Shown here: positions 28,316 to 35,905 of the stretch, piece by piece | How the letters are laid out: every line of letters starts with the position of its first letter | Numbering within the stretch: position 1 is the first letter of the stretch | Source of the DNA: Hyphomonas beringensis | GTDB taxonomy: Bacteria; Pseudomonadota; Alphaproteobacteria; Caulobacterales; Hyphomonadaceae | Length of the DNA: 64,000 bases | Assembly (NCBI RefSeq): GCF_000682755.1 | Contig: NZ_AWFF01000032.1 | Coordinates: 62,001-126,000 of the forward strand | Direction of reading: 5' to 3' | Made by a program: the position numbers and the translations under genes | Notes under the pieces: model-generated | What the model saw: the letters and a program-made list of their open reading frames with translations, nothing else | Told to the model about the DNA's origin: nothing | The model's database searches: none

Positions 28316-31006
28316 ATGAGCAAACTCATGCTAATCGACGCCGCCCACCCGGAAGAGACCCGTGTGGCGATCGTCAACAATGGTCAGGTCGACGACTTCG
28401 ACTTCGAAACAACTGGTAACGAACAACTCCGCGGAAACATCTACCTGGCAAAGGTGACGCGCGTTGAGCCGTCCCTTCAGGCGGCCTTCGTTGAGTATGG
28501 CGGCAATCGCCATGGCTTCCTTGCCTTCAGCGAAATCCACCCGGATTATTACCAGCTTCCCGCCGAAGACCGCGAAGCCCTGCTCCGCGAGGCCGCAGAG
28601 GAAGCCGCCGCTGCCATCGAAGACGATGACGAAGATGATGATGACGACACCGCCGAGAATGGGGATGACGAGGCAGACGACGCCTCTGCATCAGATGATT
28701 CCGACAGCGATGATGACAGCGACGAGGCGGATGAAAACGGCGAAGCCAAGCCTGAAAAGGCGCGCAAGCCCAAGAAATCCAGCCGCACCTCTATCTCCAA
28801 GCGCTACAAGATCCAGGAAGTCATCCGCCGCCGTCAGGTGATGCTGGTGCAGGTCGTGAAGGAAGAGCGCGGCAACAAGGGCGCCGCCCTGACCACCTAT
28901 CTCTCTCTGGCTGGACGGTACTCCGTGCTGATGCCGAACACGCCGCGCGGCGGAGGCATCTCCCGCAAGATCGTGAATGGCGCAGACCGTCGCCGGCTCA
29001 AATCCATCGTTTCCGAACTGGACGTGCCGGACGGCATGGGTCTTATCGTGCGGACGGCTGGCGCAAAGCGCACCAAGGCCGAGATCAAGCGCGACTATGA
29101 TTACCTCTCAAAACTCTGGGAAACCATTGTCGAGAAGACGCTGTCTTCCGAAGCCCCGATGTTGATTAATGCCGAAGGCGGGCTGGTCCATCGTGCGATG
29201 CGGGACATGTTCGACAAGGAGATCGAGGAAGTCCTTGTCCAGGGCGAGGACGCCTATCGCGAGGCAAAGGATCTGGCCAAGCTGATCATGCCGAGCCAGG
29301 CCAAGAAGGTTCAGCACTGGAAGGATGAAGACCCGCTCTTCGTTGCCGAAGCAGTCGAGCAGCAGCTTGATTCCATCTACTCTCCGGTCGTTCAGTTGAA
29401 ATCCGGTGGCTATCTGGTGATCAACCAGACCGAAGCGCTGGTCGCAATTGACGTGAACTCCGGTAAATCCACGCGCGAACGCAACATTGAGCAGACCGCC
29501 GTGCGCACCAATCTGGAAGCGGCCGAAGAGGCCTGCCGCCAGATGCGTCTACGGGATCTGGCCGGCCTCATCGTGATCGACTTCATCGACATGGATGAGA
29601 ACAAGAACAACCGCGCCGTCGAGAAGAAGCTGAAAGAGCACCTCAAGGTCGATCGCGCGCGCGTTCAGCATGGCCGCATTTCCCAGTTCGGCCTGATGGA
29701 AATCTCGCGCCAGCGCCGCCGCCAGGGCGTGCTGCAGGCAACATCTGATCCGTGCGAGGCCTGTAACGGCACCGGGCGCCGCCGCTCCATCCCGTCTGCT
29801 GCGCTGCAGCTGATCCGGGCGATTGAGGCGCGCGCCTCCATGGGCGGCCTCAAGGCGATCTCTGTGAAGGCGCCGACAGATGTCGCGCTGTACCTGTTGA
29901 ATAACAAGCGGGAAGCGCTGGTGGAAGTTGAGCGCATGGCCGGCTTTGCCGTCTCCATCCATTCTTCCGAAGACATGCTGCCGGGCGATTTTGTGATCGA
30001 CGCAGAGCGCGACCCGAACGGCAAGCCGAAAAAACGCAAACCCCCGCGCTCTCTCGCCAAGCCTTCCAAGCAGGAAGTGATTGAAGACGAGGCAGACGAG
30101 GACGAAGACGACACCACTGCCGACTCCTCCGAACAGGAAGAGGAAAACACGGGCGGCCGCCGCAAGCGCCGTCGCCGGCGTGGCGGACGTGGCCGCAAAT
30201 CCGAAACGGCCGAGACAAATGACGACCAGTCCTCAGACGACAATGAGGACGATGACAGCGATGACGACGAGGCGGAAAACTCTTCGGAAAGCGACACAAA
30301 CGAGGATGGTTCGCCTCGCAAGCGCCGCCGCCGAGGCCGTCGCGGAGGCCGTCGGCGGCGCAAGTCCAACGAAAACCGCATCGACACAGGCGACGAAGCC
30401 CCCACAGATGGCGGCGCCTATCTGGACGGCCTGTCTGCGAGTGCTGCGGAAATGCTCGACGCTGTTCCGGCGAGCGAAGTAAAAGCCGCTGAAGAGGCTG
30501 AAGCCGCCAAGACCGCTGAAGCTGAACGGGCCGCCGCCAAAGCAGAGGCAGACGCTGCCAAGGCTGAGGCGAAAGCCGCTGAGAACAGCGACACCAAGAC
30601 CGAGACGGCGGACGAAACCAAGTCTGACGAAAAATCGCCAGAGGAAAAACCGAAGCGCGCGCGCCGCTCTCGCAAAAAGCCCGCCAAGGCTGAGGCAGAC
30701 GAGGCCCCGGCCGCTGCAGAGGAAACGCCTGCCAAGGAAGAAAAGGCCCAAGAGCAGATTTCTGAAAAGACGGAACCTGCGGCTGAGCCGGTTGAAGCGC
30801 CTGTTGCGGAGAAGTCAGAACCTGCTCCCGCGCCGGAAGCTGAAGCCAAACCTGAGCCAGAGCCTGTAGCAACGACCGAAAAGGTCGACGCAGAGCCCGC
30901 CCTGGCCGAGGCCGCTGAAACCAAACCCGCGGAGAGCGCCGAACCTGCGAAAAAGGATACGCGTCCCAAACGCACCGGCTGGTGGGCCCGCGCCAAGCGC
31001 GACTAG
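28316..31006 (+). CDS. rne: Ribonuclease E
   Basis: Endoribonuclease and degradosome scaffold. The S1 domain begins at MSKLMLIDAAHPEETRVAI and is split by an acidic insert (about residues 100-145, Asp/Glu runs, then a Lys/Arg patch), a known alphaproteobacterial feature. The RNase E/G core has VAIDVNSGK with its catalytic Asp, IVIDFIDMDENKNN with the second, and the zinc-link CEACNGTG near residue 480. The tail (about 570-896) is disordered: two Arg-rich RNA-binding blocks (near 30150-30200 and 30320-30370) and Ala/Glu/Lys-rich segments. It ends RTGWWARAKRD, a possible partner-binding motif. I chose the ATG at 28316 with AAAAGG upstream; 896 residues. Confidence 0.94.
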   Translation: MSKLMLIDAAHPEETRVAIVNNGQVDDFDFETTGNEQLRGNIYLAKVTRVEPSLQAAFVEYGGNRHGFLAFSEIHPDYYQLPAEDREALLREAAEEAAAAIEDDDEDDDDDTAENGDDEADDASASDDSDSDDDSDEADENGEAKPEKARKPKKSSRTSISKRYKIQEVIRRRQVMLVQVVKEERGNKGAALTTYLSLAGRYSVLMPNTPRGGGISRKIVNGADRRRLKSIVSELDVPDGMGLIVRTAGAKRTKAEIKRDYDYLSKLWETIVEKTLSSEAPMLINAEGGLVHRAMRDMFDKEIEEVLVQGEDAYREAKDLAKLIMPSQAKKVQHWKDEDPLFVAEAVEQQLDSIYSPVVQLKSGGYLVINQTEALVAIDVNSGKSTRERNIEQTAVRTNLEAAEEACRQMRLRDLAGLIVIDFIDMDENKNNRAVEKKLKEHLKVDRARVQHGRISQFGLMEISRQRRRQGVLQATSDPCEACNGTGRRRSIPSAALQLIRAIEARASMGGLKAISVKAPTDVALYLLNNKREALVEVERMAGFAVSIHSSEDMLPGDFVIDAERDPNGKPKKRKPPRSLAKPSKQEVIEDEADEDEDDTTADSSEQEEENTGGRRKRRRRRGGRGRKSETAETNDDQSSDDNEDDDSDDDEAENSSESDTNEDGSPRKRRRRGRRGGRRRRKSNENRIDTGDEAPTDGGAYLDGLSASAAEMLDAVPASEVKAAEEAEAAKTAEAERAAAKAEADAAKAEAKAAENSDTKTETADETKSDEKSPEEKPKRARRSRKKPAKAEADEAPAAAEETPAKEEKAQEQISEKTEPAAEPVEAPVAEKSEPAPAPEAEAKPEPEPVATTEKVDAEPALAEAAETKPAESAEPAKKDTRPKRTGWWARAKRD

Positions 31007-31028
31007 GGCCTCCCGGCACACCAGAAAC

Positions 31029-31062
31029 AAAAAGGCCGGAGCAATTTTGCTCCGGCCTTTTT
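31029..31062. terminator. Bidirectional intrinsic terminator after rne
   Basis: A stem of ten base pairs (GGCCGGAGCA at 31034-31043 with its complement at 31048-31057) around ATTT has an A-run on the left and a T-run on the right. It can end both rne (plus) and the lipoprotein cluster (minus), which converge here. Confidence 0.92.
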
Positions 31063-31084
31063 CATCTTATATAAAAGGCACCTA

Positions 31085-31795
31085 TCACTCCGATGCCTCA
31101 CCTGCAGGAAACTGTTGAAGGTCCATCTGGTAAACGTCTGGAAGATAGGGGCCTGCAGGAATGCCCTGCCCAGCCGTTCCAGCTGCGAGCGCGTTCGCCT
31201 GCCGTGCCAGTGGCATGTAATTCGGCGCTCCTTTTTCGATGGCAGCTATGATCGCTTGGGCGATCAGATCTGCCAAAGGATTTCCAGAACTACTTGCTTG
31301 CGGAGAATAAGATAATTGCTGGGTATGAGCCCACAGGCTCTCTCCTGACTTGCAGCTTCGAAGCTCATATTTAAAAGTAACATTGGTAGACGTGGCAATC
31401 ACAACATACTGAGATTCCCAACGCTCAATGGTCAGATACAGAGCCGTGTCGCACCCAAAAATAGGAGCCAGGCGCCTAGTATCTGCCGAGTAAAGAAGTG
31501 CCGGGTCAGACATCCCCTCGTCTTCAAGAAGAGACTTCACCATATTTGCAGGAAAGACGTAATATCCACGCTGAGCGAAGGGCTGTGAGACTGTAGACAG
31601 GAAAAATTCTGGGGCTTCTACAGCGCCAGAATTGTTGAGGACAGGTAAAACAAGAATCGACTTCGGGTTTTCAGCACGAAAATCAGAGTAGTCCTTGGGC
31701 TGAGGACCAGCTGCCACACAACCTGCCAAAACAGTAGAGAGCGCGACAAGCGATGCCACACACTTAAGCGAACCGATTTTATATAGAAAACTCAT
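31085..31795 (-). CDS. GNA1162/DUF799-family lipoprotein
   Basis: Outer-membrane lipoprotein: signal with lipobox VLAGC near residues 22-26, then ENPKSILVLPVLNNSGAVEA and FFLSTVSQPFAQRGYYVFPA, the hallmark start of the GNA1162 (DUF799) family first described in Neisseria. CDTALYLTIERWESQYVV and ANALAAGTAGQGIPAGPYLP also fit. At 236 residues the length is typical. Its alpha/beta fold resembles the periplasmic part of CsgG-like and TolB-N proteins; the function is unknown. Last gene of a four-lipoprotein cluster, joined to the DUF4810 gene by a one-base overlap. Confidence 0.85.
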   Translation of the reverse strand: MSFLYKIGSLKCVASLVALSTVLAGCVAAGPQPKDYSDFRAENPKSILVLPVLNNSGAVEAPEFFLSTVSQPFAQRGYYVFPANMVKSLLEDEGMSDPALLYSADTRRLAPIFGCDTALYLTIERWESQYVVIATSTNVTFKYELRSCKSGESLWAHTQQLSYSPQASSSGNPLADLIAQAIIAAIEKGAPNYMPLARQANALAAGTAGQGIPAGPYLPDVYQMDLQQFPAGEASE

Positions 31796-32238
31796 CAGAC
31801 ATCAGCCCCTTCTGCTGAACGCATCCCATCTATTGCATTCTCCGAAACCTTGACATCGTTCGATTCAGTCTCTTCTTCCTCTATAACGCCTTCACTTTCC
31901 TGACGAGTTAAGCGAGTTACAACTCCTGACATGAACACTTCAGATTCAGGGAAGGCTTGTGCTTCCTTGCGAAACAAATCAACTGCCCCTGCTTGGTCAC
32001 CTTGACTCAACTTCAGATATCCTAGTTCGGCATACATACCCGGTGCCAAACGGTCTGTTTCTTCACCTTTTTCAATAGCCTTCTGCAGAGCCGCTTCGAA
32101 TTTATCCGCCATTTCCGGCTTCTTGTAGTACGCATATAGAGCAGGCTCGTAACTCCCGTACTCAAAGCGCGGTGCTGCCACACATCCAGCAAGCACAGCC
32201 GAAGTCGCGCACAATAACAAAATATTTTTCTTAATCAT
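31795..32238 (-). CDS. DUF4810-family lipoprotein
   Basis: 147-residue lipoprotein with lipobox VLAGC at about residues 15-19. The body shows the DUF4810 pattern: YGSYEPALYAYYKKP, then APGMYAELGYLKLSQGDQAG and FRKEAQAFPESEVFMSGVV, a short TPR-like helical domain. The C-terminus is an acidic tail (EGVIEEEETESND). Family members regularly sit between CsgG-type and GNA1162-type lipoprotein genes, as here. It is coupled to the GNA1162 gene by a one-base overlap. Confidence 0.85.
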   Translation of the reverse strand: MIKKNILLLCATSAVLAGCVAAPRFEYGSYEPALYAYYKKPEMADKFEAALQKAIEKGEETDRLAPGMYAELGYLKLSQGDQAGAVDLFRKEAQAFPESEVFMSGVVTRLTRQESEGVIEEEETESNDVKVSENAIDGMRSAEGADV

Positions 32239-32247
32239 TTTCCTGCC

Positions 32248-32562
32248 TTAGCGAATAATCTTCAGTGCACTGTCACGATCAACATAGATTTTCTTGTCAT
32301 AAAGAAGCATCGATCCATCAGTAATTTGAACGGTATGGCTACCGGGGCTTACACTCAACGTTCGCTCTTTTCCGTCGAAATCCGCAACAGCTCCCATTGG
32401 CACTCCATCAAGGATAATTTGCGCGTTTTCAGGGAACGCTTCAAAATACACGGCGCCTGAACTTCCTCCTTGTACGATATTTTTTGTAGGATAAGCACAC
32501 CCAGAAAAGGTCGTCAGACAAATCAGAGCGCCGCCAGACACAATTATATATTTCAATGACAT
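32248..32562 (-). CDS. Small PEGA-like lipoprotein
   Basis: 104 residues: signal with lipobox FSGC near residues 19-22, then AVYFEAFPENAQIILDGVPMG, DFDGKERTLSVSPGSHTVQI and KKIYVDRDSALKIIR. This is the layout of a PEGA-type beta-sandwich (a VYID-like strand, a P-E-N-A turn, and PG-SH-V). The assignment rests on pattern only. It overlaps csgG-like upstream by one base and precedes DUF4810 by nine bases, so it is clearly part of the same transcript. It is not a usual member of the CsgG-DUF4810-GNA1162 trio as I know it. Confidence 0.75.
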   Translation of the reverse strand: MSLKYIIVSGGALICLTTFSGCAYPTKNIVQGGSSGAVYFEAFPENAQIILDGVPMGAVADFDGKERTLSVSPGSHTVQITDGSMLLYDKKIYVDRDSALKIIR

Positions 32563-33515
32563 TACTTCGCCTCCCGCACAACGAGTGGCTCAGATGCATC
32601 TTGCAGGTTTCCAGAAACAATTTTCGCAATCGCTCCTTCAGAATATTCAGTTTCACCAAAGAAAGAGACAACTTCAATTTCGGCAACGGTTTCGCCTGGC
32701 AGTGTAATTGGTAGTCCGGACTGTCCGCTCGTAAGCGTTTCGCCCAAGGTTTCGACCCTGAATCTATCGCCTTTGTTCAAACCTTGCCGCTCGCCACCGC
32801 TGATGAAAACACGATCACCTTCGATCTTCAGAATATCTGTGCTCCAGGGGCGATCTTCCAGATTGCCGATAATTTCTGACACCAGATTGGAAACGGCTGC
32901 AGAGATTGCCTCATCGTTTAAAGAAGCATCGTAAGCAGCCCGCGAGCCAAATCCCGCAACCTCTCCCGACTCTGTAGATACTTCCCCGCGGCCTGCCGCG
33001 CTGAAGAATGCCAATGCCGTTCTTGGATCAACCAGCCGCGCCTCAACTGCAGCCTCGACGGTCTGCTTTTTTGTTGAACTTAAAAAGCCTACTTGCCCTT
33101 CCGTCTTCCGACCGAACTCGGTGACAGAGCCGACTATAACTGCATCAACGCCGACAAGGTCGATACCTCTGCTGTCCCCGACCAGAGACTTCTCAAATGC
33201 AAGACCATCAAGATTATCCCTCTCGAAAACTAAGAAGCCTTCAGTTTCGACCAAACGCTTGACAAGCATATCCCGCGCTTGATCCGCGAGTGGATCATTC
33301 TCCCCGTCGTAGAGAAGGCCTTTACCGTAGCGCGTGCTATTCGAAAAACGAACAACCGCAATTTTGCGCTTCAGCGTAGGTTTCGAGACAACCGGAACGG
33401 ATTGGAGCGCGACAGATTCTGTCGCAGGTCCAGAAACACGCTCCGGCGGGTTCTGAACCGTAGCGCAAGCCGTTAGTGCCACGCCCCCCACGACCGCAAG
33501 CAATAAGTTTCTCAA
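32562..33515 (-). CDS. CsgG-family outer-membrane lipoprotein
   Basis: 317 residues with lipobox LTAC near residues 14-17. The CsgG core has KIAVVRFSNSTRYGKGLLY, ARDMLVKRLVETEGFLVFER, GVDAVIVGSVTEFGRK (the family's G-A-D-x-x-I-x-G-x-x-T/V signature) and EAAVEARLVDPRTALAFFSA. A C-terminal extension (about residues 225-315, KGDRFRVE... VAEIEVVSFFGETEYSEG) resembles the FlgT C-terminal domain. True CsgG forms the curli export pore, but no curli genes (csgA, csgB, csgE, csgF) are present. A role as an envelope lipoprotein scaffold is more likely. First gene of the cluster. Confidence 0.85.
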   Translation of the reverse strand: MRNLLLAVVGGVALTACATVQNPPERVSGPATESVALQSVPVVSKPTLKRKIAVVRFSNSTRYGKGLLYDGENDPLADQARDMLVKRLVETEGFLVFERDNLDGLAFEKSLVGDSRGIDLVGVDAVIVGSVTEFGRKTEGQVGFLSSTKKQTVEAAVEARLVDPRTALAFFSAAGRGEVSTESGEVAGFGSRAAYDASLNDEAISAAVSNLVSEIIGNLEDRPWSTDILKIEGDRVFISGGERQGLNKGDRFRVETLGETLTSGQSGLPITLPGETVAEIEVVSFFGETEYSEGAIAKIVSGNLQDASEPLVVREAK

Positions 33516-33596
33516 TGTGTTTCTCCCCGATAGCCCCTATGGATACTAAGATCAGATAGCACAGCATTCCCGCTTTGATTGCCATGGTCAAGAATT

Positions 33597-33632
33597 AAAA
33601 AGGCCGATCGCGAAATAGTCGCAATCGGCCAC
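33597..33632 (-). terminator. Intrinsic terminator of the fad cluster
   Basis: A twelve-base-pair stem with one wobble pair (GGCCGATCGCGA at 33602-33613 against 33619-33630) around a five-base loop is followed by T5 on the minus strand. It lies 41 bases beyond the FadB-like stop codon and insulates it from the lipoprotein cluster. Confidence 0.85.
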
Positions 33633-33673
33633 AAGTATTCCACTAAGCACCTGAAATACAGAAATACGTATTC

Positions 33674-35905
33674 TTACGCAGCCACTTTCTCTGCTTTTCC
33701 GGCAGGGGGGAAGCGGTCATAGAAGCCTTCGCCTTTCTCTGCCATTTCGCGGAGAAGCGCTGGCGGCTCGAAGCGTTCGCCATACTTCTTGGCGAGACGG
33801 TCTGCTTCGGCGACAAACTCCTTGATGCCCCAGATGAGGTCCACATAGGAACAGCAGCCGCCCGTGTACGGGGCAAAGCCCCAGGCAAGGATAGAGCCGA
33901 TGTCTGCGTCGCGTGCATCGGTGATGACGCCCTCGTCAAAGCAGCGAGCCACTTCGATGGCCTGACGTACCAGGAAGCGGTTCTTCAGCTCCTGCTTCAG
34001 TTCCGGCGGACATTCATCCACTTTTACTTCAAGCTGGGTGTTCAGGTCAGGCCAGAGCTGGTCCGGACGGCCCTTCTCATTGTAATCGTAGAAGCCTTTG
34101 CCAGCCTTGCGGCCAACGCGGCCCTGGTCTTCGACCAGCCAGGCCAGGAACTGAGTGCGGTCATCCGTCTGCAGATCGACACCTGCCGCTTCAGCGGTCG
34201 CCCGCGTGACTTTCAGAGCCGTATCAAGACCGACCGAGTCAGACACTTCGAGCGGGCCCATCGGCATGCCGGACTGACGGCCAACATTCTCGATGATGGC
34301 CGGCTTGATGCCTTCCGCCAGCATTTCCATGCCTTCACGAGTATAGGTGCCGAAGCAGCGGGAGGTATAGAAGCCACGGCTGTCATTGACAGCAATCGGC
34401 GTCTTGCGAATGGCCAGCACATAGTCGACCGCCTTGGCGAGCGTCTCTTCGCTGGTCTTCTCACCACTGATGATTTCCACCAACCCCATCCGCTCAACCG
34501 GGGAGAAGAAGTGAATGCCAATGAAATTCTCAGGGCGCTTGGAGGCTTTCGCCAGCCCCGTGATCGGCAGCGTGGAGGTGTTGGAACCGAACACCCCTGT
34601 CTCGTCCAGAACGGCCTCGGCCATCCCGGTGATCTTGGCCTTCAGCTCTTCATTCTCGAACACAGCCTCGATGACCAGGTCAGCACCTTTGACATCATCA
34701 TAATTGTCCGTGGTCGTGATCAGATCGAGCAGCTTGTTGCCCTTCTCCTGAGTGGACTTGCCACGGGAGACATCCTTTTCGACGAGACGGCGGGAGTAAT
34801 CCTTACCCTTCTCTGCATTCTCCTTGGAGACATCAACCAGCACGGTCGGGATACCGGCCTTTGCCTGAACATAGGCAATGCCTGCGCCCATGAGACCTGC
34901 ACCGATGACGGCGATCTTTTTGAACTCCGTCTTCGGATAACCTGCCGGGCGGTTGCCGCCTTTGGAGAGTTCCTGCATCGACAGGAAGAGAGAGCGGATC
35001 ATGGCTTTCGCTTCAGGGCGCTGCTGTGTGTTGATGAAGTAACGTGTCTCGATCCGCAGGGCGGCATCGATCGGCACCTGGATACCCTCATAGACACAGG
35101 ACAGAATATTCTTTTGGGCCGGATAATTGCCATAGGTCTTGGCAGCCAGCATGGCATTCGCCATGGTCTGGACCTGACCGGCGCCAGGGCTTCTGTGGGG
35201 TACGCCGCCAGGAACCTTGAAGCCTTTGACATCCCAAGGCGCCTTCGCCGTCGGGTTTGCTTTGACCCAGGCCTTGGCCTTGTCGACCGTCTCGGAAGAC
35301 GGTGCGAGTTCTTGCACCACTCCCATGGAGAGTGCTTTCTCGGCATTGAAGCTTTGGCCCTGAAGGATCAGGGGCAGAGCGGCCTGCACGCCGACGAGAC
35401 GCGGCAGACGCTGTGTGCCACCGGCACCCGGCAGGAGACCGATCTTGGCTTCCGGCAGCCCGAATTGCAGCTTCGGATTGTCGTTCGCGGCAACGCGGTA
35501 ATGGCACGCAAGCGCCACTTCCAGACCACCGCCAAGCGCAAGGCCGTTCAGTGCAATCGCCACTGGCTTTCCGCAGGTTTCCAGCTTGCGCAGGGTACCG
35601 TTCAGAGCAAAGCCCTGATCGAATTGCTGCTTCTTGAGCTCCGCTTCGGAGAGGTCTTTCTTCTCACCGCTGCCAGCGCGGTCGCCCATTTCGCCCAAGT
35701 CCGCCCCGGCGCAGAAGCCGCTCGGCTTGCCGGATGAGATGACCAGGCCCTTGATGGCATCATTGGAGGCGACTTCCTGGGAGATCGCGATGATGTCTGC
35801 GATAGCTTTCGCTGTCAGCGTGTTCATGCTGCGGCCGGGCACGTCAAAGACTGCGTGCGCAATGCCGTCACCATCGACGTCCCAACCGAATGTTTCGAGT
35901 TCCAT
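33674..35905 (-). CDS. fadJ: Fatty-acid oxidation multifunctional protein: enoyl-CoA hydratase / 3-hydroxyacyl-CoA dehydrogenase
   Basis: Performs the hydration and NAD-dependent dehydrogenation steps of beta-oxidation. The N-terminal crotonase half has [12 protein letters not shown] (oxyanion and catalytic region) and [17 protein letters not shown]. The second half begins with the Rossmann motif [19 protein letters not shown] near residue 350, then [18 protein letters not shown] with the catalytic His, and two C-terminal HAD domains. I start at [10 protein letters not shown] (743 residues); the longer frame adds a basic, non-family N-terminus. It ends the MerR-associated acyl-CoA cluster and is 29 bases after the thiolase gene. 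FadB versus FadJ naming is uncertain. Confidence 0.92.

Follow-up and report, generated by a model that had tools for sequence, protein, structure and literature searches.

Why do four lipoprotein genes stand head to tail between rne and fadJ in Hyphomonas beringensis, and do their products work together? These questions arise from a stretch of 64,000 nucleotides (the window, contig NZ_AWFF01000032.1), in which an earlier note had seen a single unit and proposed an outer-membrane complex. One of the products belongs to the family of GNA1162, a meningococcal surface antigen; the papers that we found contain no study of its operon partners. The function of GNA1162 itself is unknown, and its resemblance to TolB and LptE suggests a role in transport (PMC6497663). 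Our results show that the genes form a real, conserved and mobile operon, which is a distinct variant of a known trio of lipoprotein genes. A search of the literature available to us found no paper on this four-gene form, on DUF4810, or on FlgT, CsgG and TolB together.

The four genes and their products

The genes run on the minus strand, from 33515 to 31085, in the order CsgG, PEGA-like, DUF4810 and GNA1162.

32562..33515, minus strand: CsgG-domain lipoprotein, 317 aa, TTG start; Pfam CsgG 2.9e-28 at residues 44-226; lipobox LTAC-A, Cys17
32562..32855, minus strand: FlgT_C-like C-terminal extension of the CsgG protein, residues 221-317, from alignment and profile matches
32248..32562, minus strand: PEGA-like lipoprotein, 104 aa, small all-beta domain; lipobox FSGC-A, Cys22
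31795..32238, minus strand: DUF4810 lipoprotein, 147 aa; Pfam DUF4810 2.9e-20; lipobox LAGC-V, Cys19
31085..31795, minus strand: GNA1162 (DUF799) lipoprotein, 236 aa; Pfam 4.7e-39; lipobox LAGC-V, Cys26
31029..31062, no strand assigned: bidirectional intrinsic-terminator-like hairpin between the 3' end of the operon and the convergent rne; 15-pair stem, T tracts on both strands

All four products are predicted lipoproteins, as in operons of the trio type, and the residue at position +2 is always Ala or Val, since the lipoboxes read LTAC-A, FSGC-A, LAGC-V and LAGC-V. The junctions are equally tight: CsgG and PEGA-like overlap by one base at 32562 (TAATG), DUF4810 and GNA1162 by one base at 31795 (TGATG), and PEGA-like and DUF4810 are separated by nine bases (32239-32247). 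The earlier note had described both traits in the same way. CsgG, DUF4810 and GNA1162 thus keep the order of the trio on one strand, with one extra gene after CsgG. The hairpin behind rne is also present in relatives that lack the operon.

The family names given in the earlier note hold. The CsgG domain is clear, and the profiles PF05643 (GNA1162/DUF799; 134 bits for a gathering score of 25.9) and PF16068 (DUF4810; 73 bits for 34.7) scored above their cut-offs. That of PEGA did not (0.008, 16.5 bits, below the gathering cut-off of 20.8), which is why "PEGA-like" is the right label; PEGA was matched by 5 of 16 homologues of this protein, at best with 2.2e-4. Comparison of the PEGA-like model with the PDB gave weak and uninformative matches (best E 0.019, carboxypeptidase D). 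The GNA1162 protein matches the solved structure 4hrv (1.7e-22), and the DUF4810 protein has a weak similarity to TPR repeats (TPR_16 0.019, below the cut-off). The window's CsgG-domain gene is the only one in the genome. A search for CsgF gave no match in this 99.99% complete genome, with a positive E. coli control, and we noted nothing resembling a curlin gene beside the operon.

Two types of a mobile operon

The four-gene order is more than a chance arrangement, as it recurs in 20 loci besides the window, and the view of the four genes as one unit was therefore well founded. A protein search across the genomes of 84,980 species returned four loci with the same order, in which CsgG identity is about 69%; identical matches came from two of the four. 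We also searched for GNA1162 at the level of the class (385 genomes) and of the phylum (299 genomes) and then read the surroundings of the matches. At the class level, 4/4 loci with full-length GNA1162 operons had the four genes. A further one (L152) came from the PEGA search, and four more from plasmid-collection records: a replicon of Paraburkholderia sp. PREW-6R, Polaromonas pPNAP04, Novosphingobium pLA5 and Prevotella sp. oral taxon 299, the last being a member of the Bacteroidota and thus of a second phylum with this operon. Altogether the 21 distinct loci, window included, span Alphaproteobacteria, other Pseudomonadota, two plasmids, the large Paraburkholderia replicon and one Bacteroidota. 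Distant PF05643 matches (L053-L058) were discarded because no operon surrounds them.

Comparison of these loci with the trio reveals two operon types. In type A (21 loci), a CsgG protein of about 310-350 residues is followed by PEGA-like, DUF4810 and GNA1162. In type B (16 loci, including one from Neisseria gonorrhoeae and one from Acinetobacter), CsgG ends right after the CsgG domain (about 225 residues), and DUF4810 and GNA1162 follow, leaving no space for a PEGA gene. Type B is the recurring trio to which the earlier note had referred: its three genes are homologous to those of the window and in the same order, but it lacks the PEGA-like gene and the CsgG extension. On the Acinetobacter islands G19ST25 and G19ST78, three lipoproteins, one of them CsgG-like, were reported to be encoded in an operon for which an effect on outer-membrane permeability was proposed (PMC3224125); from Acinetobacter contig L183 we infer that this is the same trio. 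Contig L183 is labelled Acinetobacter phage MD-2021a, a label that we do not follow: the trio sits there among ordinary metabolic genes, and the record is probably bacterial DNA misfiled as phage.

The PEGA-like gene and the CsgG extension always come together. The extension, of about 80 residues and with the motif ISGG..QG...GD, is present in 21/21 type A and 0/16 type B loci; in one type A copy (L063) CsgG is interrupted by a stop. Across the 30 loci compared, Fisher's test for the association of extension and PEGA gene gives 7e-9. Among the 299 phylum genomes, strong matches to PEGA (E <= 1e-24) and to the extension (E <= 1e-35, plus a split copy in G678) occur in exactly the same 10. Profile searches with the PEGA-like protein gave strong matches confined to this operon type, and in 372 class genomes such matches lay solely within known operons. 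The trees of CsgG and GNA1162 split into the same PEGA-bearing and PEGA-less groups, with all type A sequences on one side of a single branch (100/100 and 100/99, respectively) and the trio operons in a separate clade. As one branch separates the two lineages in each tree, the perfect co-occurrence may reflect a single evolutionary event whose outcome was kept ever since. A local insertion of the PEGA-like gene into a trio, as the earlier note had supposed, is ruled out, because the gene is fixed throughout an old operon lineage. The same note had held that absence of this gene from all homologous loci would speak against a dedicated four-part complex; the gene is present in 20/20 loci sharing the CsgG extension, so there is no such absence.

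The operon is horizontally mobile. Its G+C content is 46-52%, against 56-63% in the surroundings, it occupies the rne-fadJ interval, in which relatives have no operon, and it was found in only 2 of the 37 genomes of the genus that we searched, at different sites; the second copy (G049) is on a contig other than that of fadJ. The remaining four-gene loci adjoin unrelated genes, some of them on plasmids, and across lineages no neighbour families are shared beyond the four genes, save incidental pairs, and the neighbours give no hint of function. The plasmid copies are not consistently AT-rich.

A possible ring complex and its alternatives

The nature of the extension bears on what the operon may encode. 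Taken alone, it matches FlgT_C at 0.091 and 13.7 bits, under the Pfam cut-off of 27, and 10 of 15 CsgG homologues match FlgT_C with a best value of 0.0027, also below the cut-off. About 80 further genomes contain proteins that weakly match a profile of the extension; we checked four of them, and three contain LysM and one of these three also FlgT_C (8.2e-6). The profile of the whole protein reaches the C-terminal part of the LysM protein of PDB 6ve2 (0.0021). These LysM proteins, which we take to be TsaP-type, have the FlgT_C-like C-terminal module in common with our protein by profile match, but carry LysM on the N-terminal side where CsgG is found here. The full-length CsgG model (pLDDT 61.8, the low-confidence parts being the signal region, loops and hairpins) best matches in Foldseek the FlgT of the LPHT ring 8z5n (E 1.5e-14, TM 0.59, 278 columns) and FlgT 3w1e (1.7e-13), followed by curli CsgG (8.3e-7); PelC rings and GNA1162 4hrv were also listed. 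At this pLDDT of 62, the model has a FlgT-like fold over its middle and C-terminal domains, and the predicted fold is nearer FlgT than curli CsgG. Fold comparison and weak sequence matches thus agree with the FlgT-like extension described in the earlier note.

Several known systems offer partial parallels. In Vibrio, FlgT occurs in the flagellar H-ring with the lipoproteins FlgO and FlgP (PMC7990780). The likeness extends to a CsgG/TolB-like domain followed by a FlgT_C-like one and to outer-membrane lipoprotein partners, and FlgT is the best fold match; yet the CsgG protein here is itself a predicted lipoprotein, its FlgT_C matches are below the Pfam cut-off, and in an unsystematic reading we noticed no flagellar gene beside the loci examined. 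Curli CsgG has the same Pfam domain and a lipoprotein anchor, but our protein has shorter hairpins, an additional C-terminal domain, other partners and no CsgF. PelC, which forms a dodecameric ring in solved structures of Pel polysaccharide export, is a lipoprotein of similar fold, but its sequence is too distant for family membership and no pel genes were noticed beside the loci examined.

We give about even chances to the idea that this mobile operon encodes a ring or scaffold complex of four lipoproteins anchored in the outer membrane. The CsgG domain, fused to an FlgT_C-type domain, would assemble into an oligomeric ring on the side of the outer membrane that faces the periplasm. Instead of a complete 36-strand barrel of the curli type, a lipid and short, hydrophobically tipped hairpins would hold each subunit in place. 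GNA1162, of the TolB_N/CsgG/PelC-like fold class, could form or cap a second ring, and the TPR-like DUF4810 and the PEGA-like lipoprotein might be small adaptors. The PEGA-like protein would serve the FlgT_C extension as its dedicated partner, since no locus found has one without the other. The probable task of the complex would be to brace or gate the passage of a polymer or protein across the outer membrane. This reading draws on single-chain models of modest confidence (pLDDT 62 and 67), and the operon has no substrate or partner genes encoded nearby. The missing CsgG lipobox in two lineages (L064 and L181) and the single branch behind the pairing of extension and PEGA gene also count against it. 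Such a complex would probably be related to, yet clearly different from, the curli-exporting channel.

The closest competitor is a true secretion channel of the CsgG type, with CsgG as a barrel pore through the outer membrane, gated by its three companions or supplied by them, as chaperones, with a substrate encoded elsewhere. The clear CsgG domain, whose whole-protein profile matches E. coli CsgG at 4.5e-9, fits this explanation, as does the presence of both hairpin segments, shortened by comparable amounts. However, hairpin 1 has 14 residues in 15/15 intact type A proteins and 17 in type B, about 6 and 3 fewer than the approximately 20 of E. coli CsgG in the alignment, and its type A sequence (KTEGQVGFLSSTKK) is mostly polar around a hydrophobic middle. 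For hairpin 2, counted by hand, the deficit against E. coli comes to about 6 residues, hairpin 1 having been measured automatically. Such short hairpins make a full 36-strand barrel less likely, as far as the sequences tell. The genome has no match to CsgF, no conserved neighbour stands out as a candidate substrate, and the fold is nearer FlgT than CsgG, so that we consider a channel rather unlikely.

Weaker still, and in our opinion quite improbable, is a role as regulator of an envelope enzyme, in which the lipoproteins would reach through the periplasm to a synthase and activate it, forming neither pore nor stable ring, much as LpoB activates a peptidoglycan synthase. Matches of CsgG homologues to LpoB (5/15, best 2.2e-4) and TolB_N (7/15, best 2.7e-6), together with the TPR similarity of DUF4810, are in line with it, but the former reflect a common fold class and a synthase gene is linked in no locus examined. 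Finally, the genes could be a fortuitous run at a site that collects lipoprotein genes, given that the rne-fadJ interval holds others in about 14 of 35 relatives; this has hardly any probability left, because plasmids and distantly related bacteria have the identical order, at sites with no relation to one another, which rules out chance clustering.

A four-lipoprotein ring or scaffold therefore remains our preferred reading, and it permits a bolder version that we put forward tentatively, as somewhat improbable: a previously undescribed mobile machine, present in two phyla, in which CsgG-FlgT_C rings with a dedicated PEGA-like lipoprotein are stacked with GNA1162 and DUF4810 and export or anchor a polymer. 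If true, curli channels, flagellar H-rings and the secretin scaffolds of type IV pili would be a single modular family. Of the two ancient forms of the operon, one adds a C-terminal domain of CsgG and a PEGA-like lipoprotein together, and this joint addition provides a concrete partner prediction and suggests a possible ring architecture akin to the outer-membrane scaffolds of flagella and pili. In two type A loci (L064 and L181) CsgG has no lipobox and the PEGA-like protein keeps its own, for which reason the latter might provide the membrane anchor there.

The rne-fadJ interval and a plasmid copy

Independently of the operon, the interval between rne and fadJ (31006-33674 in the window; L085-L137 in relatives) is variable within the genus. 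Among the 35 loci compared, it consists of only about 80-190 bases in 13, contains a different predicted lipoprotein gene, from several families, in about 14, and other genes in a few. In a close relative (G009, fadJ protein 97-99% identical), the operon site is occupied by a lone PEGA-like lipoprotein gene (CATVTKGT..., L085:3759-4408), whose product has no match to the operon's PEGA-like protein at E 1e-3. On the Polaromonas plasmid pPNAP04 (L179:3854-8766), the surroundings of the operon include an IS5-family transposase and stress-response genes of the VWA/TerD kind.
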